A stretch of DNA of 64,000 nucleotides from Hydractinia symbiolongicarpus. Taxonomy: Eukaryota; Cnidaria; Hydrozoa; Anthoathecata; Hydractiniidae. Below the pieces are notes generated by a model that was given only the letters and a program-made list of their open reading frames with translations, was not told the origin of the DNA and made no database searches. This document shows positions 10,645 to 48,000 of this stretch, piece by piece. Both the position numbers and the translations under genes were made by a program. The DNA is taken from assembly GCF_029227915.1 (NCBI RefSeq), contig NC_079889.1, positions 1,674,001 through 1,738,000 on the forward strand. Reading direction: 5' to 3'. Positions within the stretch are counted from its first letter, which is position 1, and each line of letters begins with the position of its first letter.

Positions 10645-13600
10645 TTATTCTGAAGACATGACAGCATATAATGCTATCATTCCCATTGTTAACACATACA
10701 TGAGTAAAAATAAACGATCAGTCGATCTTATCACCGCCTCAACTTCCAATCTGTTGACACTGCTAGTTATTTTCTCTCGCAGCTCTTTCCTAGTATTTTC
10801 TATCTCCATTCCATCCAGTAAGGGTAATGTTTTTACTTCTTCTTCTATTAACATCTTAATGGCTTCTGTTTTGTTTGTTCTTCTTAGATTTTGGTAGTCA
10901 GCGTTATCAAAATCGACATTTATATTCACAGCTAAGTCGATATTCGTATGCACAGCAAAGTCGATATTTTCACTTCTACTATTCTCTCGTTTTAAATTCG
11001 TGTTTTCTTTCAATTGATTTAATGCTTGAATGCATCGATTAACACTTATCGGGTCAATATCGTGTTTTCCGTTTGTGTAGTTATAATACCGACGTGTCAT
11101 TAAAACAACAACTGCGCACCAATCGATAACAATAACGTGTACAAAGCGAGAAATAACTTTCCCTTCCCGATAAAACATATTTAAGCCCATCGTTACGATT
11201 ACTAAAGACAAAAATGACAATAACATTGTACAAAAGTACATTTCGGATAGAACAGGAAATGCATAGGGCGGTAAAATATCCATCGTAAGCTGCTCGAATA
11301 TGATAATAGTTAGTAATATATTTAACGCGTGGTTGTGACGGTTGAGCGAAGGTAATGGAATAAGGAACGCGAGAATCATTAAAATCGATAAGAGAATACA
11401 CGGAACAAAAAAATTTACGTAATAAGCATATGCGTTTCTGTGCAAACTAAATTTTAACTTTATTGACGACTGCTCATTTACACCTTGGAGGAAAGAATAC
11501 GGAAGGAGAAACAACTTCATTTCTGTATGCTTTAAATGTATTGAATTTTCTATTGTTTTTAATTTCAAAAGAATCAGTGCGTGAGGTGCTCGACCGAGTC
11601 TTTTTCGCAAAAAAATGATCAAATTCCATATTCTCCTTTAATAGGGGCTAACTTTTTTCTATTGAAATCTGACAGTAACACGCTGCAGGCACGTGATGTT
11701 TGTATGGAAAGTGTGCCTAATATAAGTCGGTAAACATTGCTGTTAAAAACTTCAACAATACGTTGGGAAATAAGCGTTAAACCATGATATTAACCTATTT
11801 TTGCAGGCTTGAGTATACCACTTTGATCATGAAAAACAATATAGATAGATATGCGCCGGACGAGTGCCGACAAAATGTGTGCTGGATTAATGTTTCTTCT
11901 AACTAAAGAAATAACTTCTTATAACAGAACGTCGTTTTAAAACGAGATATAAACTTTTTCTTTTTGTTTACAAAAGTGTCGCGCATGTGCTTCTTCGCTA
12001 ATTATGTTAACATAAGAACAAAAGAAATTTTACCGATTTCAATATGGCTTCTTGTTTTGATAATATTATCAAATTCATCATCAAATTATCTAATTGTTTT
12101 TATAACCAATCATAGTTGCGAATTGTTATTTACGAATAATTTAGTCACACAACCGCCAAAATTTCAAATTTAGTTTCTATACAGACACCTGCTAGAACCT
12201 CACGCAGTGTTTCAATAGAATTGAAAGAGTTGTTTCTCCTTCCGTATTCTTTCCTCCAAGTTTACACCAACAATCATTTCTGATTCGTTTATTTCCATAA
12301 TTTTCAATTCCCATTCTTTATTCCTAAATCTTTCATCTATACGTTTCTCTGGATCTTGTAGAATGAACCCAAGACGGTTTTTAGAAGAATAACTTGAAGT
12401 AAGTATGATGCTGCATTTATGCTCGTCAAAGGGGAACTGTTTAAGATGGATATTGCAGTCCTTTTTGATTACAATCTCTCCAATCCATTCACAAGTACCG
12501 TTCGAATTGATTTTCACGTACGTCTCTAGTTCAGATAACGGAGGGTTGGCGTAACCATCAGGTAGCGTGCTGAAAACAAAATAAAGCAAGGTAAAACAAC
12601 ATTGAACAAGGTGAAACAACATTGAACAAGGTAAAACAAGGTAAAACAAGATAAAACAAGGTGAAACAACATTGAACAAGGTGAAACAAGGTAAAACAAG
12701 GTGAAACAACATTAAACAAGGTGAAACAAGATCAAAAGAGATTAAACAACATCAAATCAAACAACATCAAACAACAAAGAACAACATGAAGTAAGATGAG
12801 ACAAGGTAAAAAGCTTCACTGCGTGTATATTACCATCACAATACACCACGAAATTAACTTCAGTGTAAATGTTTAAGCTCATTCCCTTCTTTTTTGAAAG
12901 CCTCTTTATTGCGTCTAATATTTAAAGAAAGTAAACACTGTCCGGACATTTATTAGAGGAATTAGTGTCATATTCGAAGCTATATCTTTGAATCCCTTAA
13001 TCTCTTAAATCTATTACCACTTGACACTTTATTCTTTTTATAAGTGTCCTTTCTCAATCAAGCCGTAAAAAATTCACAAATCCCAGAAAAGTCGATAAAA
13101 AACATATTGTGTATGTTATTTTCAGGTTAAAGATTTCGTGCACGATTAGCATGACCGCTTTAGGTTAACTGACAAAATACGACCATAATAGAGATGAATA
13201 TGTAAAATATGTCATATTGTGCGTATGACGTATCATGACGTATCATTATAATGATCTTCTTAATTGTCAACAGTGGACTAAGATTTAAGCTGATCGTAAT
13301 GACGTCACTGGGTATGTCAAAATGCAGGTAAAGTCCACTTTGCTTTGTCACGCAACCAGGAAAATAAGAGGCAGAATAAGCGGGAAAATACCACACATCG
13401 TTAGTTTTACTACCTAGCCTTATTTACAACACTTGTATCGCAATAACGAATCGTATATAAAGTTAATATAGTTATTTTCGATTAAATGCAATAAATTTGC
13501 AAAAACTACTATATATATATTCACTTTCATGTTTTTGTGTTTGTTTAAAGTGTTTTAAAAATACGAAATCTGAAAATACCTTTCGTGCAACAAGCTATCC

Positions 13601-14989
13601 GGCTGCCACACATCTGAAGATTTGAGAATCAAGTGATCGATATTTTCATAATAAGTTGAGTTCCACGATAGATGAGGATTAAACCATCTCTGAATGAATC
13701 CCAAACAATAGTAAGAAATACAGGTTGAAAAAGTTGAAATAAATATACATGCTGCACTCTTAAATATTTTTTTCGATGGGTTTGTAATTGAAAAGGGTGA
13801 GATTGTAGACTAGTTCATGCAAATAATATTATACCTGAGTTGCTAGCACAAACAGTAGCACTTGTTGACTATGTTCTTCCTAAAAATATAAATAATTTTA
13901 ACAAACATTCTCACAAAAAAAAAACACTAAATTATATTTAAGTAAGCACGTTAGATTTGATAAAAGATATAACTTAAAGAAGATATTATTTGTCTGGAAA
14001 TTTTAAAGCAAATTAGAAAGTACTGATAAAGGAGGAAAGAAAGACAAAAATGTTTTGAAATAAAAATCACTCACCACATCAATGAGTCGTAGTAGCTGCA
14101 AATTTGAATACACCAAAAGCTTTTGATTGTTTTCTGTATATGGAGAAAGCTTCAACTTGCTTTTCAGATGCTCGTGTAAACTTGCTGAGTTCAGCCTCGC
14201 TAAAATAAAACAACATTTTCCTATGTATCGGTGTCTATGGCAATCCACCTCCATATATATCATTGATTCTGATAGTACAGAAAGCAAATGCACAATACGT
14301 TATAATGTTTCGTTATTAGACAGGTCATTTTTGGTTTGCGTAAGCCCAGGAGAGAGAACAGAAGACCTGCAGGATATATGCTGAACCACAACTGCATACT
14401 ACATGATGCCAAGTATACGCAGCAGACTGTCTCAGAATAAACAAGTCTGCTGTTACAACATGTTTAATGTCGCCATAGGGAATAAAGGCATTGCCATCTT
14501 TTATATTACTACTTTATTATCTGTGTTCATAATGGCTGTGCGCAAGGTGATTCCGGGTTTTACCATAACTACAAAATTTACTGACGTTGAACCCGTAGAT
14601 ATTTTCATGAGCTAACGATTTCGCTTGTATAATAGTTTCTGAAGATAAAGAGATGAGAAACTCGCGCTTTTAGTAAACTACACGCCGTATTATAAGAAAG
14701 AATTTTGGAATCCATATTATAATACCCGTTTACGTCTGTCCGTATGTCACGCAAAATGGTAGCTTGGCTGCGCAAGTATAAAAAGGACGAGCAAACCCGT
14801 GGATTTTTCCACGGGCTAACGACTAGTTTTCTATAATAAGAGCAGCTTAGGCTGAACCAAATCATGAATTTCTTTAAAAAAATGAATGTAAATGAATAAA
14901 AGTATTTAACCAGGACTACGACGGTGAAAAAATATGGACATACCTTTTACGTAACTAAGTAAAAAAATAAGATTTAAAAAGTTTAGCAT
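10645..14989 (-). CDS. Nicotinic-receptor-like Cys-loop channel subunit (six exons, 488 aa)
   Basis: Exons on the minus strand are 14989-14944, 14199-14075, 13879-13835, 13689-13580, 12569-12268 and 11483-10645; all junctions are GT..AG and in phase. A signal peptide (MLNFLNLIFLLSYV) precedes a ligand-binding domain. That domain has a loop-D tryptophan (W74), WQPD (100-103) and a Cys-loop C147-x13-C161 containing FPFD. Four membrane segments follow: M1 about 230-252, M2 about 259-280, M3 about 291-313 and M4 near 465-485. The product would sit in the plasma membrane as one fifth of a ligand-gated ion channel. It lacks the vicinal CC of loop C. The loop-B tryptophan is serine (168) and the loop-A tyrosine is histidine (107), so it looks like a non-alpha subunit supplying only the complementary face. 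In M2 the -1' glutamate is asparagine (257). AATAAA overlaps the stop codon. Intron 5 is a transposon, described separately. The closest family is nAChR; the ligand is unknown. Confidence 0.85.
11477..12267 (-). mobile_element. Introner-like TIR element forming receptor intron 5
   Basis: The element spans 11484-12260 (777 bp). Its ends are a perfect 33-bp inverted repeat at 11484-11516 and 12228-12260, starting CTTGGAGGAAAGAATACG. Subterminal stretches inside each end are also similar (CAGTGCGTGAGGTGCT against CACTGCGTGAGGTTCT). It is flanked by a 7-bp duplication, GTGTAAA on the minus strand, at 11477-11483 and 12261-12267. The upstream copy is the 5' splice site and the element's terminal CCAAG is the 3' splice site. 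Splicing therefore removes one duplication copy plus the whole element and restores GTT-GGT-GTA-AAT. No transposase frame is visible, so it is non-autonomous. The superfamily is unresolved; 7-8 bp duplications occur in hAT, P and MULE types. Confidence 0.88.
12587..12776. repeat. Minisatellite in receptor intron 4
   Basis: Irregular tandem units of about 10 and 20 bp are built from CAAGGTAAAA and CAAGGTGAAACAACATTGAA. They decay into ACATCAAACA units at the right end. The array lies just inside the 3' end of the intron before exon 5 and gives a spurious Leu/Phe/Cys-rich frame on the minus strand. Confidence 0.85.
14711..14826 (+). mobile_element. Helitron-like short copy A (116 bp)
   Basis: Begins TC after an A and ends CTAG before a T, as Helitrons do. 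The 3' end has a hairpin, CCCGTGG-ATTTTT-CCACGGG, 8 bases before the CTAG. The left part contains AATACCCGTTTACGTCTGTC and CACGCAAAATGGTAGC, shared with the other copies. It is too short to code for anything and so is non-autonomous. Confidence 0.75.
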
Positions 14990-15520
14990 TCTGAAGTATC
15001 CTGATTCTCTTCTCTCTTCACGGAAATACTTCACTCTTCTTTAAATTTTAAGTTTTTAATGAATGTGTAACATAACAGAGTATTTTATGTATAACCAAAG
15101 CTGTGAAACTAAATAAATAAAATATGTATGAGTAAAGGGCCTGATACACTTGTACAATATCACTGAAATATAAATTATAATATCAATATAATTTCTTAAA
15201 ATATGTTTAAAATATGGTTATAATTTCATATAATATTTCTTATAATATAGCTATAATATGTATAATTTCAACACCTGGCATGTGCGTCATAACCTCATAA
15301 TTTGCTGCATGGCTATAATATTTGAAAAAAATCAAACGAGTTAGATTTTAATAATATTGTTAGTGATCCAGTTTCGAATGACTTTGTTTTTGTGACAATA
15401 GATCTATTATCTGCTAGCCTTGTTGTGGCAACGATGTTATGAAATTAATTGAAATTATAACGATATTATAACAAATTCTAAGTATATTGTAGAAAAATTA
15501 TAACTGTATTATAGAATATA

Positions 15521-15697
15521 TCTCTATTATAATAGCCGTATTCCGTCTGTTTGTCTCTGCGCGGACCCCCCGCTGAGATAGAAAATGATGTTACGGAAAC
15601 ACGAATATCAAATGCGATAAATTCTTATCCACTTTGTTGCCACGGGTAAATTCAAAGGACGGGCGAACCCGTGGATTTTTCCACGGGCAACGACTAG
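15521..15697 (+). mobile_element. Helitron-like short copy B (177 bp)
   Basis: Starts TC after ATATA, contains the CCGTATTCCGTCTGT left motif, and ends with the hairpin CCCGTGG-ATTTTT-CCACGGG followed by CAACGACTAG. It abuts copy C directly. Confidence 0.7.
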
Positions 15698-15843
15698 TCT
15701 ATATTATAATACCCGTATATGTCTGTCCGTCCGTCAGTCTGTCACGCAAAATGGTAGCTTAGCTGCGCAGATAGCGAAACGCACGCAATGCGGTATAAAA
15801 AGGACGGGCGAACCCGTGGATTTTTTCACGGGCTAACGACTAG
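15698..15843 (+). mobile_element. Helitron-like short copy C (146 bp), tandem with B
   Basis: Starts TCTATATTATAATACCCG immediately after the CTAG of copy B and ends CTAG before T. The left and middle motifs (GTCTGTCCGTCCGTC, CACGCAAAATGGTAGC) and the 3' CCCGTGG..CACGGG hairpin are best preserved here. Confidence 0.75.
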
Positions 15844-15876
15844 TTTAATGATATTATACAAGTGTATCCTGGCCTT

Positions 15877-17582: not shown

Positions 17583-17750
17583 TGTAGTATTCATCTATCA
17601 TCAGATAAAAAGTATTCTTCTGATAAAAGAAGCTAATCACATATAAACATAAAGTCTGATATCAGATGCTGTGACGCCATCTTGGATCGTGTTTTTGAGA
17701 GCGAGCCGAAACTCACGGCATCCGATATATACCTAGTAAAATATATTACA
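17583..17750 (-). repeat. 3' LTR of the Ty3/Gypsy element
   Basis: 168 bp, bounded by TGTAGTATTC and ATATATTACA on the plus strand. On the element's own strand it carries a TATA-like GGTATATATCGG. It is short compared with most Gypsy LTRs. Confidence 0.93.
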
Positions 17751-17986: not shown

Positions 17987-20900
17987 CTAAGTCTTCTTCT
18001 TGCGCTTCGGATTGATGATGACGTAACGCTCTGTAGTTTTTCTTTGTCGTTTCGGGTAGGTTTTTGCACCGTTCTTGTGGTTTTTCTTTTCGTATAGATC
18101 TTCTTCTTTGTTATGGCCATCATTCGGTTTAGATTGTTGGTTCTCATCAAAATTCGCATTGCTTGAGCAGGTACAAGGGTCTGCCCTGTTTCGCGCGTTA
18201 GAAACACTCGATTGCTTACCCTTCGCAGATCTATACAGTTTCGCGTGTCCGTTTGCTCGTAGAAACGTTTTTCCTTCCTTGTTTCGAACCATGATGCTTC
18301 GTTTGTATACTTTAATGATGGTGAAGACTTCCTTTAACCAGGGCGGTGAAAGTTTGTTTTTGTTGTCGGTAAGATTTTTCAACAATACCTTTTGTCCGAC
18401 TTCAAAAGTGACAGTTTTTGCCTTGCGGTTCTGGTCGGTGTTTTCCTTGGATTTCTGTTTGTGCTTTTCATCATTCTTGTTTACTTCTATATCCAATTCA
18501 CTGTTGCTTTTCACAAGTTGACTAACGTCAGGAAGATCATTCGTTAGCGGTCTACCGAACATCAGTGTTGCAGGTGGAACTTTAGTTACGGTATGAGGTG
18601 TGGTTCGGTAACTCAAAAGGAATGTGTCAAGAGTTTTACGCCAATCCTTTCCAGTGATGACAGCAGTTTGATTGTGTCGCTTCAATGTGCGGTTAAATCT
18701 CTCAACCTCACCATTAGCTTGTGGCCAGTATGGAGTTGTACGCCGGTGTTTTATACCATGTTGTTGAAGGTATCGGCTGAATTTGAAGGACGTGAATTGT
18801 GAACCGTTGTCAGTTACAATTGTTTTTGGATAACCAAAAATACTAAAGGTTCGCTTCATAACATTTATTATGTTTTGCACACCAGTGTTCTTGATAGAAG
18901 AAACTATTGGGTATCTGGATCTGTAATCAATCAAAACTAACAGGTTGTCACCAGAGGGATAAGGGCCTTGAATGTCCATTGCAATAGTGTTCCAAGGTTG
19001 TTTGGGAATTTCTGTTGGTTGTGACGGTTCATGCCTGGTGGTGGAGGGTGCAGTTACTTGGCAGGCATGACAGGTAAGTGTTAGATCTTCGATTTGTTTG
19101 TTCATCAGCGGCCACCAAACTTTTTCACGTAATAGTAGTTTAGTTTTGGTTGTTCCTTGATGCGTAGCATGTGCTATCTGCAACATTTTCTGTTGTAGAG
19201 TGCTTGGGATGACAATTCGTTGTCCTTTGAGTAAAATGTTATTCACAAAGGATAACTCATGCTTTGCATGTCTGTATGGATTCAAAGCAGAATCTTTTGG
19301 CCAGGCCTTCGAGTTAATGGCTTTGGTGACTTTTTGAAGAATGATGTCTTTTGCAGTTTCATCTTGTATCTCTTCGATATTGCAGCTTTTAGGTACTGCT
19401 TCTGCTGCTGTAAAGTTGATAAAGGATTCAATTGAGTCGTCAGTTTCTCCTTCACTGTCTGTACAAACAGGGTCTCTTGATAGTATGTCAGCAGCATTTT
19501 TGGCACCAGAAATGTATTTTAATTTGTAGTTATACCCTTGTATGCGAAGAAGCCATCTCTGGATCCTCGGTGGTGGAGATGTGGAAGTTGGTGACATTAC
19601 GTGCAAAAGACTCTTGTGATCAGTGGTGATATCGAAGTCACGGTCATATATGAAAAAGTGAAAGTGTGTGCAGCCAAAGGCAACTGCAAGAGCTTCTCGT
19701 TCTGTTTGTGAGTATCTCTGTTCAACAGGTGTTAATGCTCTACTTCCATATGCTACCGGCTTGAAGTTTCCATCTTTCTGTTTCTGTGTAAGTATGGCAC
19801 CAAGACCATACGGACTTGCATCAACAATTATGTCTGTTTCCGCCTCAGGATTGTAAAATGCCATAGTTTCAGAAGTGCAAAGTTTTTCTTTGAGTAAATC
19901 AAATGATTTCTGTTCAAGATCTGTCCATATGAATGGTGTATTTTTCTTGGTGAGTTTCCTCAGTGGAGCTGATAATGTACTGTAGTCTTTGATGAACTGA
20001 CTGCAATAATTTACTAGACCAAGAAAGGATCTGACTTCTGTCGATGTTGTTGGTGTTTTGAATTTGTTGACTGCAGTGACTTTGGAAGGGTCTGGAGATA
20101 TGCCATTTGTTGTGAGAGTATATCCACTAAATAAAATTTTATTCTTGCTAAACTCACATTTTTCTGGGTTGACACGCAGGCCATTCTCAGAAAGATTACG
20201 AAGAACCTTATCGAGATTGCGGTCATGCTCAGCTTGTGTTTTTCCCCAGATAAAAATATCATCAGAGATGTTCTTTGCCCCTTCACAATCAGCAATTACC
20301 ATTTCAATATTTTTCTGAAAATGTTCAAAGGCACTTGAAATACCATATATGAGACGCTTGTATCTGAAAATTCCTTTATGGGTAATGAAGGCAGTAATGT
20401 TTCTGCTTTCTTCGGCTAACTCAATTTGATGGTAGCCTTCTCGCAGGTCAATTTTTGAGAAGACAGTGGCTCCATTTAATAATGGTAGGATTTCTTCCAG
20501 TTTTGGAATAGGATGCTTCTCTCTGATAATGGCAGTGTTTGCTCTGCGCATGTCCACACACAATCTAATTTTGCCATTTTTCTTAGGTACTGCGACAATT
20601 GGTGAAACCCACGAAGTTGGTCCATTAACTGGCTCAATGATATCTAATTTCAGCAGTCTATCGAGCTCTGCTTCAACTTTCTTTCTGGTGTGAAACGGCA
20701 GTCTCCTAGTTGGTTGCTGGATGGGGGTGACATCTGGATCAATATGGAGTTTCTGTTTGAAGTTGTTAAGTTTTCCCATTCCTTTGAATACCTTATTGTT
20801 TTTGTTGAGGACTTGTTCTGTTGATACTGGTATGCCTTTTGACAGACTTCTGCTACCTAACTGGAATGTTCTATGGTTGATGGGTGTTGTAGCTGGTCCA

Positions 20901-22087
20901 ATTCGTAATAGATCTAGCTGCTCAGCTGTTTTGTGACCAAGTAAATTGCCTCCTTGACCAGGTATTACGTAGAATTTTGCTAGTATTTTATGGTGATTTG
21001 CTGCAACTGTAGCTTTGAAGGTACCAGTGATTGGGAGCTTCTTAGTAGCATTGTATGGGTAGATTCGGGCATTGGATTTCTGAAGCTGGATGTTGCTGAA
21101 TAAGCGTTTATAGGTTCGAAAATCGATGATATTTGTTGTGCTTCCAGAATCAATGATAGCAGTCATTTCGCTATTGTTTACTAGAACGGGGAAGTTATTT
21201 GACTTCGTAGTGTTCATCTTGTATAGGTAGATATCCTCATCTTCGTCATCAGAGTTTTCATGGTTGGTTTGATGAACTTGCTGTTTATTTTTGGTGCGGC
21301 ACATTTTTGCAAAATGTCCTTTAATACCACATTTGTTACATGTTTTATCTCTTGATCTCCGACATTCATGACTTTTGTGGTTCTTCATACCACAGCGACC
21401 ACATTCTGGTTTGTTGAATGATTTGGTTGGGTTGTTCCGATGTGGTGGTGCATTGTGTTTCCTATGGCTACGATGAGGTGGTCTACGCCCATGTAGTTTG
21501 TTGATTTGTTCAGAGCTTTCTTCTTCAGTGTCATGTTGTGTTTGTTTACCATTAGCTATTTCTTTGTTTTGGTGTTCTGCAGATTCAAAAAGTCGTCCAA
21601 GGTCCTGTGTTTTCTGGAGATTCAAATCAGTTTCCATAAGTAAACGTTTGCGGAATTTAATATTCGATGTTTTTGCTATGACCATGTCTCGGATTTCATT
21701 GTCAGTTTCTGATCCATATTCACAATATAAGGAAAGTTGTCGTAGACGGGTAATGAATTGATCCGTACTTTCCCCTACTTGTTGTGAGGCTTGGTGAAAT
21801 TTATGCCTTTCGAAAGGTATGTTCTTTTTGACTGAAAAATGTTCATCAAATTTATGGAGGGCTTCTTCAAATGTTGTTCCAGGATCAGAGAAAGTTTCAA
21901 ATATTTCCTGGCATTTAGGTCCAATCATGTGGAGTAAAATTGCCCTCTTTCTTTCATCATCCCTAACTCCACTTGCTAGTATGTAGTATTTAAGACTGGT
22001 CTGCCATTTCGTCCATCGTTGACCAACTGAAGTCGGTTCTCCATTTGGGTCAAAGGGTGGTATGGCTGGAAGTTGCAAAACGGACAT
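17987..22087 (-). CDS. Gag-Pol polyprotein of the Ty3/Gypsy element (1366 aa)
   Basis: A single frame with no gag-pol frameshift encodes the proteins for retrotransposition. The start chosen is the first ATG (22087, MSVLQLPAIPP). Gag is followed by two CCHC zinc knuckles (229-242 and 250-263) that bind RNA. Then come an aspartic protease (DSG 313-315) and reverse transcriptase (about 470-660, catalytic SDD 608-610 in the context NISDDIFIWG). RNase H (D756 in IVDASPYG) and integrase complete it. The integrase has an HHCC finger at about 973-1009 and the catalytic triad D1038, D1093 and E1129, the last two 35 residues apart. The tail is basic, with no obvious chromodomain. The order protease-RT-RNaseH-integrase is that of Ty3/Gypsy. 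The first residue of the usual YxDD box is isoleucine, which to my knowledge also occurs in other Gypsy elements. No stop or frameshift is seen. Confidence 0.95.
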   Translation of the reverse strand: MSVLQLPAIPPFDPNGEPTSVGQRWTKWQTSLKYYILASGVRDDERKRAILLHMIGPKCQEIFETFSDPGTTFEEALHKFDEHFSVKKNIPFERHKFHQASQQVGESTDQFITRLRQLSLYCEYGSETDNEIRDMVIAKTSNIKFRKRLLMETDLNLQKTQDLGRLFESAEHQNKEIANGKQTQHDTEEESSEQINKLHGRRPPHRSHRKHNAPPHRNNPTKSFNKPECGRCGMKNHKSHECRRSRDKTCNKCGIKGHFAKMCRTKNKQQVHQTNHENSDDEDEDIYLYKMNTTKSNNFPVLVNNSEMTAIIDSGSTTNIIDFRTYKRLFSNIQLQKSNARIYPYNATKKLPITGTFKATVAANHHKILAKFYVIPGQGGNLLGHKTAEQLDLLRIGPATTPINHRTFQLGSRSLSKGIPVSTEQVLNKNNKVFKGMGKLNNFKQKLHIDPDVTPIQQPTRRLPFHTRKKVEAELDRLLKLDIIEPVNGPTSWVSPIVAVPKKNGKIRLCVDMRRANTAIIREKHPIPKLEEILPLLNGATVFSKIDLREGYHQIELAEESRNITAFITHKGIFRYKRLIYGISSAFEHFQKNIEMVIADCEGAKNISDDIFIWGKTQAEHDRNLDKVLRNLSENGLRVNPEKCEFSKNKILFSGYTLTTNGISPDPSKVTAVNKFKTPTTSTEVRSFLGLVNYCSQFIKDYSTLSAPLRKLTKKNTPFIWTDLEQKSFDLLKEKLCTSETMAFYNPEAETDIIVDASPYGLGAILTQKQKDGNFKPVAYGSRALTPVEQRYSQTEREALAVAFGCTHFHFFIYDRDFDITTDHKSLLHVMSPTSTSPPPRIQRWLLRIQGYNYKLKYISGAKNAADILSRDPVCTDSEGETDDSIESFINFTAAEAVPKSCNIEEIQDETAKDIILQKVTKAINSKAWPKDSALNPYRHAKHELSFVNNILLKGQRIVIPSTLQQKMLQIAHATHQGTTKTKLLLREKVWWPLMNKQIEDLTLTCHACQVTAPSTTRHEPSQPTEIPKQPWNTIAMDIQGPYPSGDNLLVLIDYRSRYPIVSSIKNTGVQNIINVMKRTFSIFGYPKTIVTDNGSQFTSFKFSRYLQQHGIKHRRTTPYWPQANGEVERFNRTLKRHNQTAVITGKDWRKTLDTFLLSYRTTPHTVTKVPPATLMFGRPLTNDLPDVSQLVKSNSELDIEVNKNDEKHKQKSKENTDQNRKAKTVTFEVGQKVLLKNLTDNKNKLSPPWLKEVFTIIKVYKRSIMVRNKEGKTFLRANGHAKLYRSAKGKQSSVSNARNRADPCTCSSNANFDENQQSKPNDGHNKEEDLYEKKNHKNGAKTYPKRQRKTTERYVIINPKRKKKT

Positions 22088-22280
22088 GCTAGCTGCACAG
22101 AAATGCTCAGAGCGCGCGCACAAGTATAACTATCGCTTGAAATTACAAAGGACAGCCTAGCAAAGTTTCCTTTCGCACAGTAAGAGTCAACAAAATTTGT
22201 TGTTTTGATTCGAAAATTCACACGTCTTGTTTCACGCGAGATTGCTTTGTAATTATGAAATATACCTCTCCATGAGTTCT

Positions 22281-22300: not shown

Positions 22301-22468
22301 TGTAGTATTTATCTATCATCAGATAAAAAGTATTCTTCTGATAAAAGAAGCTAATCACATATAAACATAAAGTCTGATATCAGATGCTGTGACGCCATCT
22401 TGGATCGTGTTTTTGAGAGCGAGCCGAAACTCACGGCATCCGATATATACCTAGTAAAATATATTACA
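22301..22468 (-). repeat. 5' LTR of the Ty3/Gypsy element
   Basis: Same as the 3' LTR except for one visible base change near its end. On the element strand it would contain the promoter, with TATATA close to its left edge. Confidence 0.93.
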
Positions 22469-45043: not shown

Positions 45044-48000
45044 ATGTTTCGAGATCTGTGGGTCTTGTGCTTGGTTTTTATTTTTTCAAATTGTAAGGTA
45101 AGAGTTGTTATGTCATCTAAATTAATCACCACATGAGTCATCAAAATTCAGTAAGCTGTTTCTGCAGTGTGTGGCATATCCTCTAAACGGGATGATAATT
45201 CGTTGCCTATAACTAAATTAAGTGGAACATGACTTCAATTAACTGCAGGTCTCCAGAGAATTAACTTTTGTGTAAAATGAAAACTTGTTTATTTAGATTG
45301 ATGCAATACAAAAAAATCAAACCCAGAATGGTAAGCCTAAGTTTAGCAATCAAAACACATTCCAAGGATTGTCGCTAAATTCGTTTTTTTTTCTTCAGAA
45401 ACATTGGAAGTATGCAGGAAAGAATATTTTGTTGCAAAGTTTGTGAACTCAAGTATGTTTTTTCCTTTAATTCGTCAAAAACTTTAGGCTCTTTTGGTTA
45501 TTTTATATGCGATAGCATTTTGACACCAAATTGCAACTATTTTAGTTTCGCAATGCAAAAAACAATGTTATCTCACAGTTTGTCGGTTTCCATGCCTAAA
45601 AACTGTTTTCTTCCGTCAATTTTTAACTAAAATTCACCGTGATAGCCAAATCAAAAGCTAAAGAATTGCAATTAATTAATTTCTTAGGCGAGCGTTAGTT
45701 ATACACAGAATATGAATTAAAATTAAGAGAAGGAAAATATTTTTGTTTTTCTTATCTGAAACACATGTATCAGATTTGCTTTTCCTCATCAGAGCTAGAA
45801 TGTATTAGCGTAAAGCTCATTAAAATATCAGTTAATATTGCTAAGTGATTACATTTGACATCTTTCTTAACCCATGGTTATGTGTTCATCTTCATTCTCG
45901 TTATCCCACACAGCCTAAACAAACAGGCTTGGTTTGAGAACATTTTTCGATCTGGCTTTCTTCCAAAATATATAACTTAAAAGGTGTACAGAGAACCTTT
46001 ACCGAGATGGTTTCCGTGTTTTTTTTAATCTTTTTTTTTTTTGCAGACACATCCATTACAAAAGAAGAACTTGTTAACACAAAGCATTGTGCACACAACG
46101 CCAACAAAACGAATTTACAAAATACACTTAGTATCATCTACGTATTTAATACAGCTCTTAAAAAATACTTTTACTGGCTGCGTGGTGAATTGGTGCAAGA
46201 TGCTGCAGGTAATGGTATGTTTTTGTTGACTTAGTAGACCGTTTATTAAATTAAAAGATATATATCCACTTTACAGATAAACATTCCGTGGTCATCTGTT
46301 AGTTTCCGGTTTAGCAGTGTTTGTATAAAATTACGAAATCCATGTTACGTTTTCACAATCATTATTATCGATGTGTGTACTTTAGAAATGTTAACTAAAT
46401 TTTCGGACAGAGTGGGACTCGAACCCACGCACTTCAAACTTCCCGGCTTTAAATGACAGCTTTTCTAGGGTTGACGCCTAAAACTGCTCAGCTATCCGCC
46501 CATGGGACAAATCACCACCCTGGCACACAATTAATACTTATAGGGTGTTACCCTACAAACATCAGTTGCGAAATGTAATACCGCACACACCAGTTTTCGG
46601 AGGTTTTTTACACAACTGTATTCGTTATAGGGGTTTTACCCACAAACACTACATTCAGTAACGAAATATATTGAAACGCTGTAAAGAAAATAGTTTGATA
46701 CTATCAAAAATTGATAGTATCAAACCAGTTCCTCCTTTTCCCTCTTCTACCCTATTAATGCTATATTCATGCAGTATAAAATTATTTTAACTAAAACAAC
46801 CTCTTTCGGGCAACTCAAGAAAATACTGGAATAAGAAATTTTAAAGGCGTTTCATGAATTTTGTCTGTCATTGCAGTTGCAGTGAAGTAACCCTGGCATA
46901 ATAAGTTATCAACTTCTTAACAATTTTATTTTATTTTTACAAACTTCGTTCTTAGCGTCAACTTTTTCTCATTTAGACTGGGGAAGTGTGCTTTTTGTTA
47001 CAAATGACTTTGAAACCATAACACAATATTATAACTTTGGACAAGAAAAGGTTTGTTACATTTTTTTATACAGCGAACTATCCAATTAGTAGACACCTTT
47101 GGTGTAATCTCTCATTGTCCACTAATAACTTGTGTCCGAAATTTGGAGTATCACTTAGCTGTTTCGATCTGACAGGAAACGGGTCTAGAAGCGTTATCTT
47201 ACGAATTAGACAACCTATGTTTACTTCAACTTAGTCTAGGGAGAGAGAGAGAGAAAGAAAGACGGAATGCTAAAATCCATATACCTAGACATCATAAGGC
47301 ACTAGCACTGATGTAGTTAAATTAGATGCTTGTTCAAGAAGCCACATGAAAAATATATGTTTAAAGCAAAATATTTGTATTTCCTTTCCCTGTCCAGAAA
47401 TCACAGAGAATTTCCGGCTGGCAAATTCATTCTGTCATACGTCAAACTGTCTGCTAATTAGAATATAAGCCAAATGCTGTCCGTTATCTGGTTTTCTTTG
47501 AAGTATGCGATCGTGGTCTTGCGAGTAGAATGTGATTATCAATTAATTAGACACATCTATTAATGAGAGAGTTCACTGTATTAAACAATGCTCTTGCACC
47601 CAATTAAGAAAAAATTAAATTAAACAAAAAAATTAAAGTCGGGTTCGGTTAAATGTAAGATTTTTAAAATTTTGCTAAACCAAATTTTAAACGTTATAAG
47701 ATGGCTTAATAGTCTCCAGTCTCAAAAGTCATATGATAACTGATATGACAGCTTTCCGCTCTTTACTGAAACAGTGGTGGCACAAATTAACTATATGTGA
47801 AAACTTCTCTGACAAGCCATGGTTTATTGAAACTCCATAAACGAAAATTGCAACTCTTGCGCACTCGTACGTTACGTCATTCTGTCGTATTTAGATATAA
47901 ATATTGTTACCTGGGCAAAGCAAAGGTCTTATAAAAGGTTGATCACGTGGAAGTGTTTTAACACTATGAATTATTGTTGCGTTTTAGGTAAAAGCCTATC

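Follow-up and report, generated by a model that had tools for sequence, protein, structure and literature searches.

A very recent transposon insertion as the probable origin of a seamless intron in a Hydractinia receptor gene

A nicotinic-type Cys-loop receptor gene on the minus strand of the Hydractinia symbiolongicarpus genome carries a DNA insertion in one of its exons. We found it in a window of 64,000 nucleotides, the whole stretch of DNA analysed here (contig NC_079889.1, positions 1,674,001 to 1,738,000; positions below are those of the window unless a genome location is given). The best explanation, to which we assign a probability of roughly 0.8, is that a 777-bp non-autonomous cut-and-paste transposon jumped into the receptor exon very recently and became a spliceosomal intron at once. 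The anatomy of the insertion, the family to which the element belongs, the 7-bp duplication, the annotated junction, and the bias of the family's targets toward GT were all observed directly. That the receptor intron is spliced we infer from the NCBI gene model, which was possibly driven by the open frame.

Pfam assigns the flanking exons to a Cys-loop receptor, with the ligand-binding domain on one side of the element and the membrane domain on the other, and alpha-7 nicotinic receptors are the best-scoring solved relatives of the protein. An NCBI protein from H. symbiolongicarpus, 'neuronal acetylcholine receptor subunit alpha-7-like' (P0001, 488 aa), is 100% identical to our spliced query over all 380 query residues, junction included, and is the sole near-identical protein among the 2 matches. 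When the gene was searched for GT-AG introns of 30-2,000 nt whose splicing yields P0001, a single structure was obtained, with exons of 46, 125, 45, 110, 302, and 839 nt and a last intron running from 12267 to 11484. On the minus strand, exon 1 (14944-14989) holds the start codon and is followed by exon 2 (14075-14199), exon 3 (13835-13879), and exon 4 (13580-13689). Exon 4 and exon 5 (12268-12569), the latter immediately upstream of the insertion, encode the ligand-binding domain (Neur_chan_LBD, PF02931), while exon 6 (10645-11483, stop codon included), downstream of the insertion, encodes the membrane domain (Neur_chan_memb, PF02932). In size, exons 3 and 4 (45 and 110 nt) presumably resemble those of vertebrate nicotinic genes, in which case the earlier introns of the receptor gene would be ancestral and the element intron would be new. 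Just upstream of the gene, at 15144-15867, we also observed a second inverted-repeat structure, with 27-bp ends and a possible 4-bp duplication, CCTG.

The element, a MITE-like DNA transposon, occupies 11484-12260 and is bounded by inverted terminal repeats at 12228-12260 (5' on the gene strand) and 11484-11516 (3' on the gene strand), which are complementary at 33 of 33 positions. On either side lies a copy of the target-site duplication GTGTAAA (TTTACAC on the plus strand): copy 1, at 12261-12267, provides the GT of the splice donor, and copy 2, at 11477-11483, forms the first 7 nt of the last exon. These are the perfect 33-bp inverted repeat and the direct duplications that an earlier note on this DNA had described. 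The interval given there, 11477-12267, is correct for the element together with both duplications, but the intron proper, made up of duplication copy 1 and the element as in P0001, is 11484-12267 (784 nt).

With the exon-intron boundary marked by a slash, the junctions of the last intron read TTG/GTGTAAAC at the donor (TTG/GTGTAA) and TTCTTTCCTCCAAG/GTG at the acceptor. The same note had proposed that the duplication supplies the donor GT and the end of the element the acceptor AG, and this is the arrangement in the sole GT-AG solution for P0001. Splicing out 12267-11484 reconstitutes GTT-GGT-GTA-AAT-GAG, so that the predicted return of uninterrupted codons was reproduced. The edges of the intron are the edges of the insertion, with zero bases left between the exon and the duplication copies, which is the boundary looked for in an introner. 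The acceptor AG and its pyrimidine tract lie within the 3' inverted repeat, where 15 of the 17 bases preceding the terminal AG are pyrimidines. This is the best such tract among the element's 40 AGs and ranks in the top 0.38% when all 6,514 AGs on the two strands of the window are considered. As the element ends in inverted repeats, the acceptor would be the same in either orientation of the element. In the predicted RNA fold, the element's two ends pair with each other (z -8.6 versus 20 shuffles). By eye, the base preceding both duplication copies is also G, making the direct repeat 8 bp at this site; we take the duplication as 7 bp because other copies of the family show 7.

Such a structure could also arise if a transposon had invaded an intron that was already present, and introns before the first membrane helix do exist in other receptor genes. 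At this site, however, exon sequence meets a duplication copy directly at either side, without leftover bases, and the joined flanks form an uninterrupted coding frame whose alignment with human alpha-7 continues through the insertion point. Going by vertebrate exon sizes, the position presumably matches no alpha-7 intron either. We regard an old, later invaded intron as extremely improbable. The idea put forward earlier, that an intron was born when a DNA transposon entered an exon and left the protein unchanged, appears to hold, in that P0001 uses the junction and no remnant of an older intron is seen.

On sequence grounds, the element belongs to a young family. A genome search with the element's end and with the whole element, a check that had been proposed along with that idea, found the exact 23-bp end at 213 places (control pattern, 0). 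From 270 candidates (271 when the duplications were included in the query), 40 full or near-full copies were scored, with identities of 97-100%. One of them, on another chromosome (G000:C7:15905989-15906765), shows 0 differences from the receptor copy over 777 positions, which implies that either the receptor insertion or its twin's took place very recently. For 38 of the 40 copies, both flanks were read. The duplication was exactly 7 bp in 33 and matched at 6 of 7 bases in 3; in the remaining 2 it was missed by the script, and by eye the first base of the element is altered. The window was also scanned for inverted ends of at least 12 bp with flanking duplications of 4-10 bp, and of the 8 structures listed only the receptor element has a duplication longer than 5 bp. 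This finding, together with the exact 7-bp duplication in 33 of 38 family copies, excludes a chance origin.

With its length of 777 bp, 33-bp inverted ends, 7-bp duplication, and many near-identical copies, the family has the features of a MITE. The single frame of the element that was scanned, of 82 aa, gave no Pfam match. The 23-mer end occurred at 0 places in viral contigs and at 0 in genome contigs, a set from which the window's own genome records may be left out. In the available parts of the two Hydractinia genome papers (PMC11067881, PMC10411563), DNA transposons are described as numerous and most repeats as unclassified, and the 777-bp family is not mentioned.

Among the 33 exact 7-bp duplications, position 2 is T in 27 and position 6 is A in 27, while G or C is found at position 1 in 23 and at position 7 in 20. 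Judged from these duplications, the target preference is palindromic, (G/C)TTNAA(G/C). In 19 of the 33 copies, one strand or both have GT as the opening of the duplication, compared to 10.7% of background 7-base windows drawn from 23 genome stretches of 10 kb each (230 kb in total). Genome-wide, GT occupies the first two duplication bases at 81 of 213 ends (38%; control, 0) versus a background of 5.5% per strand, where the 213 ends are partly non-independent: some elements are counted twice, and GTTAGAC appears four times, always on C1. The third duplication base is T in 40 of the 81 GT-opening ends, and thus many such donors would be weak. Because many copies lie outside any open frame, the GT bias more likely reflects target choice than selection for splicing.

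These features suggest how the intron could have arisen. The transposase would prefer targets like (G/C)TTNAA(G/C), and this preference would place a GT-opening copy of the duplication just outside about a third of element ends. The inverted ends would serve as ready-made acceptors, with pyrimidine tract and AG, whichever way the element lies. Where the coding strand has GT at the start of the duplication, the spliceosome would excise the first duplication copy together with the element and leave the mRNA unchanged, and pairing of the element's two ends may aid this by bringing donor and acceptor together. Where the duplication has no such GT, the element can disrupt the gene it enters, as is annotated for another copy.

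That copy, at C1:29335929-29336705, interrupts a TRIM-like gene within an exon, and its duplication, TTTTGAG, has no GT. The NCBI protein at this locus, P0015, reads into the element and ends within the element's translation; a separate protein, P0042, matches the downstream side of the insertion, and the paralogue P0004 is uninterrupted. (For the interior of the TRIM-like element, the window copy was used as a stand-in, and one residue differs from P0015.) In this one pair of gene models, therefore, the same element appears as an intron where the duplication has GT and as a truncated gene where it does not. On the TRIM strand, a GTATGC of the element itself, 41 bases in, would by eye splice in frame to the terminal AG with the addition of 16 codons, so a duplication without GT need not be fatal; the NCBI model leaves this GTATGC unused. 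TRIM-like proteins are numerous in Hydractinia (G000:C1), several of them with ankyrin domains, and the closest full-length ones are ~90% identical to the interrupted gene.

The TRIM-like copy bears on whether the receptor insertion, though recent, is in fact left unspliced or spliced poorly. The annotated intron would then be a gene-prediction artefact that joins two open frames, and the allele of the sequenced animal would be broken or weakened. By eye, the receptor donor TTG/GTGTAA looks weak beside the gene's other donors (GTATGT, GTGAGT, GTATAA, and GTATTT), and two bases downstream lies a possible competing donor, GTAAAC, whose use with the same acceptor would lead to an early stop. Read unspliced through the element, the receptor protein ends at 227 aa, before the membrane domain. 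Precise removal of any duplication-flanked insertion restores the frame, so a gene predictor would choose such an intron in any event, and since the receptor element still matches another copy at every position, there may have been no time for selection to act. That the family can enter exons and truncate genes is evident from the TRIM-like insertion itself. Yet there the NCBI pipeline truncated the gene instead of bridging the element, indicating that it does not always bridge such insertions, and at the receptor the GT and AG fall exactly at the duplication and at the element's end. We consider a failure of splicing to be quite unlikely, and favour the reading that the receptor insertion was born as an intron.

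How often the family has done this was approached through its other copies. Of the 36 copies scanned (two with a changed end base were set aside), 19 have an open frame of 70 codons spanning the empty site and 17 have none, and Pfam was run, besides the receptor, on 8 of the 19 open-frame loci. Among the 38 copies read, a homology-supported coding frame was found at 5 loci: the receptor, the TRIM-like gene, L034, L028, and L078. The L034 frame, for a KRAB-A domain-containing protein 2-like product, is uninterrupted in the paralogue P0043; the L028 frame is continuous in the homologues P0044 and P0050; and L078 has a weak Pfam rve match (E 0.00078, below the Pfam cut-off). GT is on the coding strand at all three. 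At L027, GT is on the strand of a coding-like frame, and L025 has a reverse-transcriptase-like frame by eye only. One composite protein search (16 matches, to proteins of 177-564 aa) gave no protein of their own locus for L027, L028, L034, and L078; a paralogue and homologues were found. For 20 more GT-flanked ends, with one flank read for each, no recognisable coding exon was seen, and two were open over 73 of 77 codons.

Annotation was looked up at six of the 38 loci and gave one annotated intron, that of the receptor, and one truncated gene, the TRIM-like one. To the question raised in the earlier note of how many copies coincide with annotated introns, the answer at these loci is the receptor copy; the other five are the truncated TRIM-like gene and the four loci for which the search gave no protein of their own. 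The note had further supposed that a related element may be seeding introns in this lineage; the element does belong to a recent multicopy family, but a single annotated intron among six loci does not show such seeding.

A true introner family would be one in which the element made several Hydractinia introns and spread through genes by that means. The GT-biased target and the acceptor-ready ends would suit it, as would the coding-strand GT in the homology-supported, coding-like frames of L028, L034, and L078, two of which are uninterrupted in homologues. On the other hand, the lookup yielded only one intron, and nearly half of the scanned copies (the 17 of 36 above) lack an open frame over the site. 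Moreover, the hosts at L034, L028, and L078 look transposon-derived or repeated, and these loci were chosen after the fact; for these reasons, and with no locus protein within the 177-564 aa search, they prove no further introns. We judge an introner family of this kind to be unlikely. We describe the receptor case as an intron born of a transposon and working in the manner of an introner, without classing the whole family among the introners. More tentatively, and aware that it may well be wrong, we suggest that in this cnidarian family, with GT opening ~38% of its duplications and acceptor ends that work in both directions, a large share of exonic insertions are born as seamless introns. If so, the receptor intron would be so young that living colonies could still be polymorphic for it, and the birth, loss, and selection of introns would be traceable in a laboratory animal.

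The DNA-transposon introners reported by Gozashti et al. (2022; PMC9860276), in the portion of that paper available, have terminal inverted repeats, a target duplication, and an unchanged mRNA, and the receptor intron shares the inverted repeats, the duplication, and the unchanged (predicted) mRNA. An introner of Symbiodinium microadriaticum (PMC9860276, 2B legend) has the same splice geometry, with a duplication of 4 bp versus 7 bp here. According to the same portion, an introner family has between 5 and >2,000 copies in a genome, situated within genes at a higher frequency than expected; here, the six loci whose annotation was looked up gave a single annotated intron. The origin of introns is a long-standing question, and transposon-born introns have rarely been reported in animals: PMC9860276, in that text, places introners in two animal groups only, of which copepods are named, even though 835 of its 3,325 genomes come from animals and land plants. 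Within the titles and abstract openings of the introner literature searched, there was no report of a cnidarian introner.

New here are the young family of the element, the measured target bias that supplies donors, and the GT-less sister insertion annotated as a truncated gene. Together with an annotated intron whose element is identical to another family copy, and in an animal used in the laboratory, they make testable the possible rule that a GT in the duplication decides between intron and knockout. Maize Ds insertions in exons offer a parallel, since these too are single exonic insertions removed by splicing, at sites at or near their ends; Ds splices are often imprecise, whereas the predicted product of the receptor gene is unchanged.

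Two long family copies were considered as the autonomous parent and rejected, L092 (4,368 bp; G000:C7:14413200-14417760) and L097 (5,430 bp; G000:C8:12223380-12228900), as in both the transposase-like genes sit in a later nested insertion with its own ends. The element nested in L092 is of the ISL2EU type, with a THAP/DDE transposase frame of 534 aa and a YqaJ frame of 574 aa; in its THAP, DDE_Tnp_4, and YqaJ genes it resembles the ISL2EU/PHIS transposons treated in the available part of PMC4482050. The 777-bp family itself does not belong to ISL2EU, for which that part of the paper gives an AT duplication rather than 7 bp, and the genes in question lie in the nested element with its own CACCGTTCCC ends. 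The element nested in L097 has TACCGTGG ends and, by eye, an integrase-like frame of 392 aa and a HECT ligase-like frame of 710 aa. A lone end at L018:646 (G000:C1:15000646) matches the inverted repeat of the family over its first 21 bp but has a different interior, with no partner end found in the next 19 kb; it may represent a related subfamily or a piece of the parent.

Elsewhere in the window, a 1,380-aa open frame at 17987-22129 (minus strand) has reverse transcriptase, RNase H, and integrase domains as well as a weak PNMA-like stretch below the cut-off. The 168-bp direct repeats on either side of it (17583-17750 and 22301-22468) are 99% identical, and the whole is probably a young LTR retrotransposon. 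An uninterrupted run of 115 TA repeats lies at 1192-1421, and a tRNA match above the Rfam gathering score was found at 46404-46501 on the minus strand.
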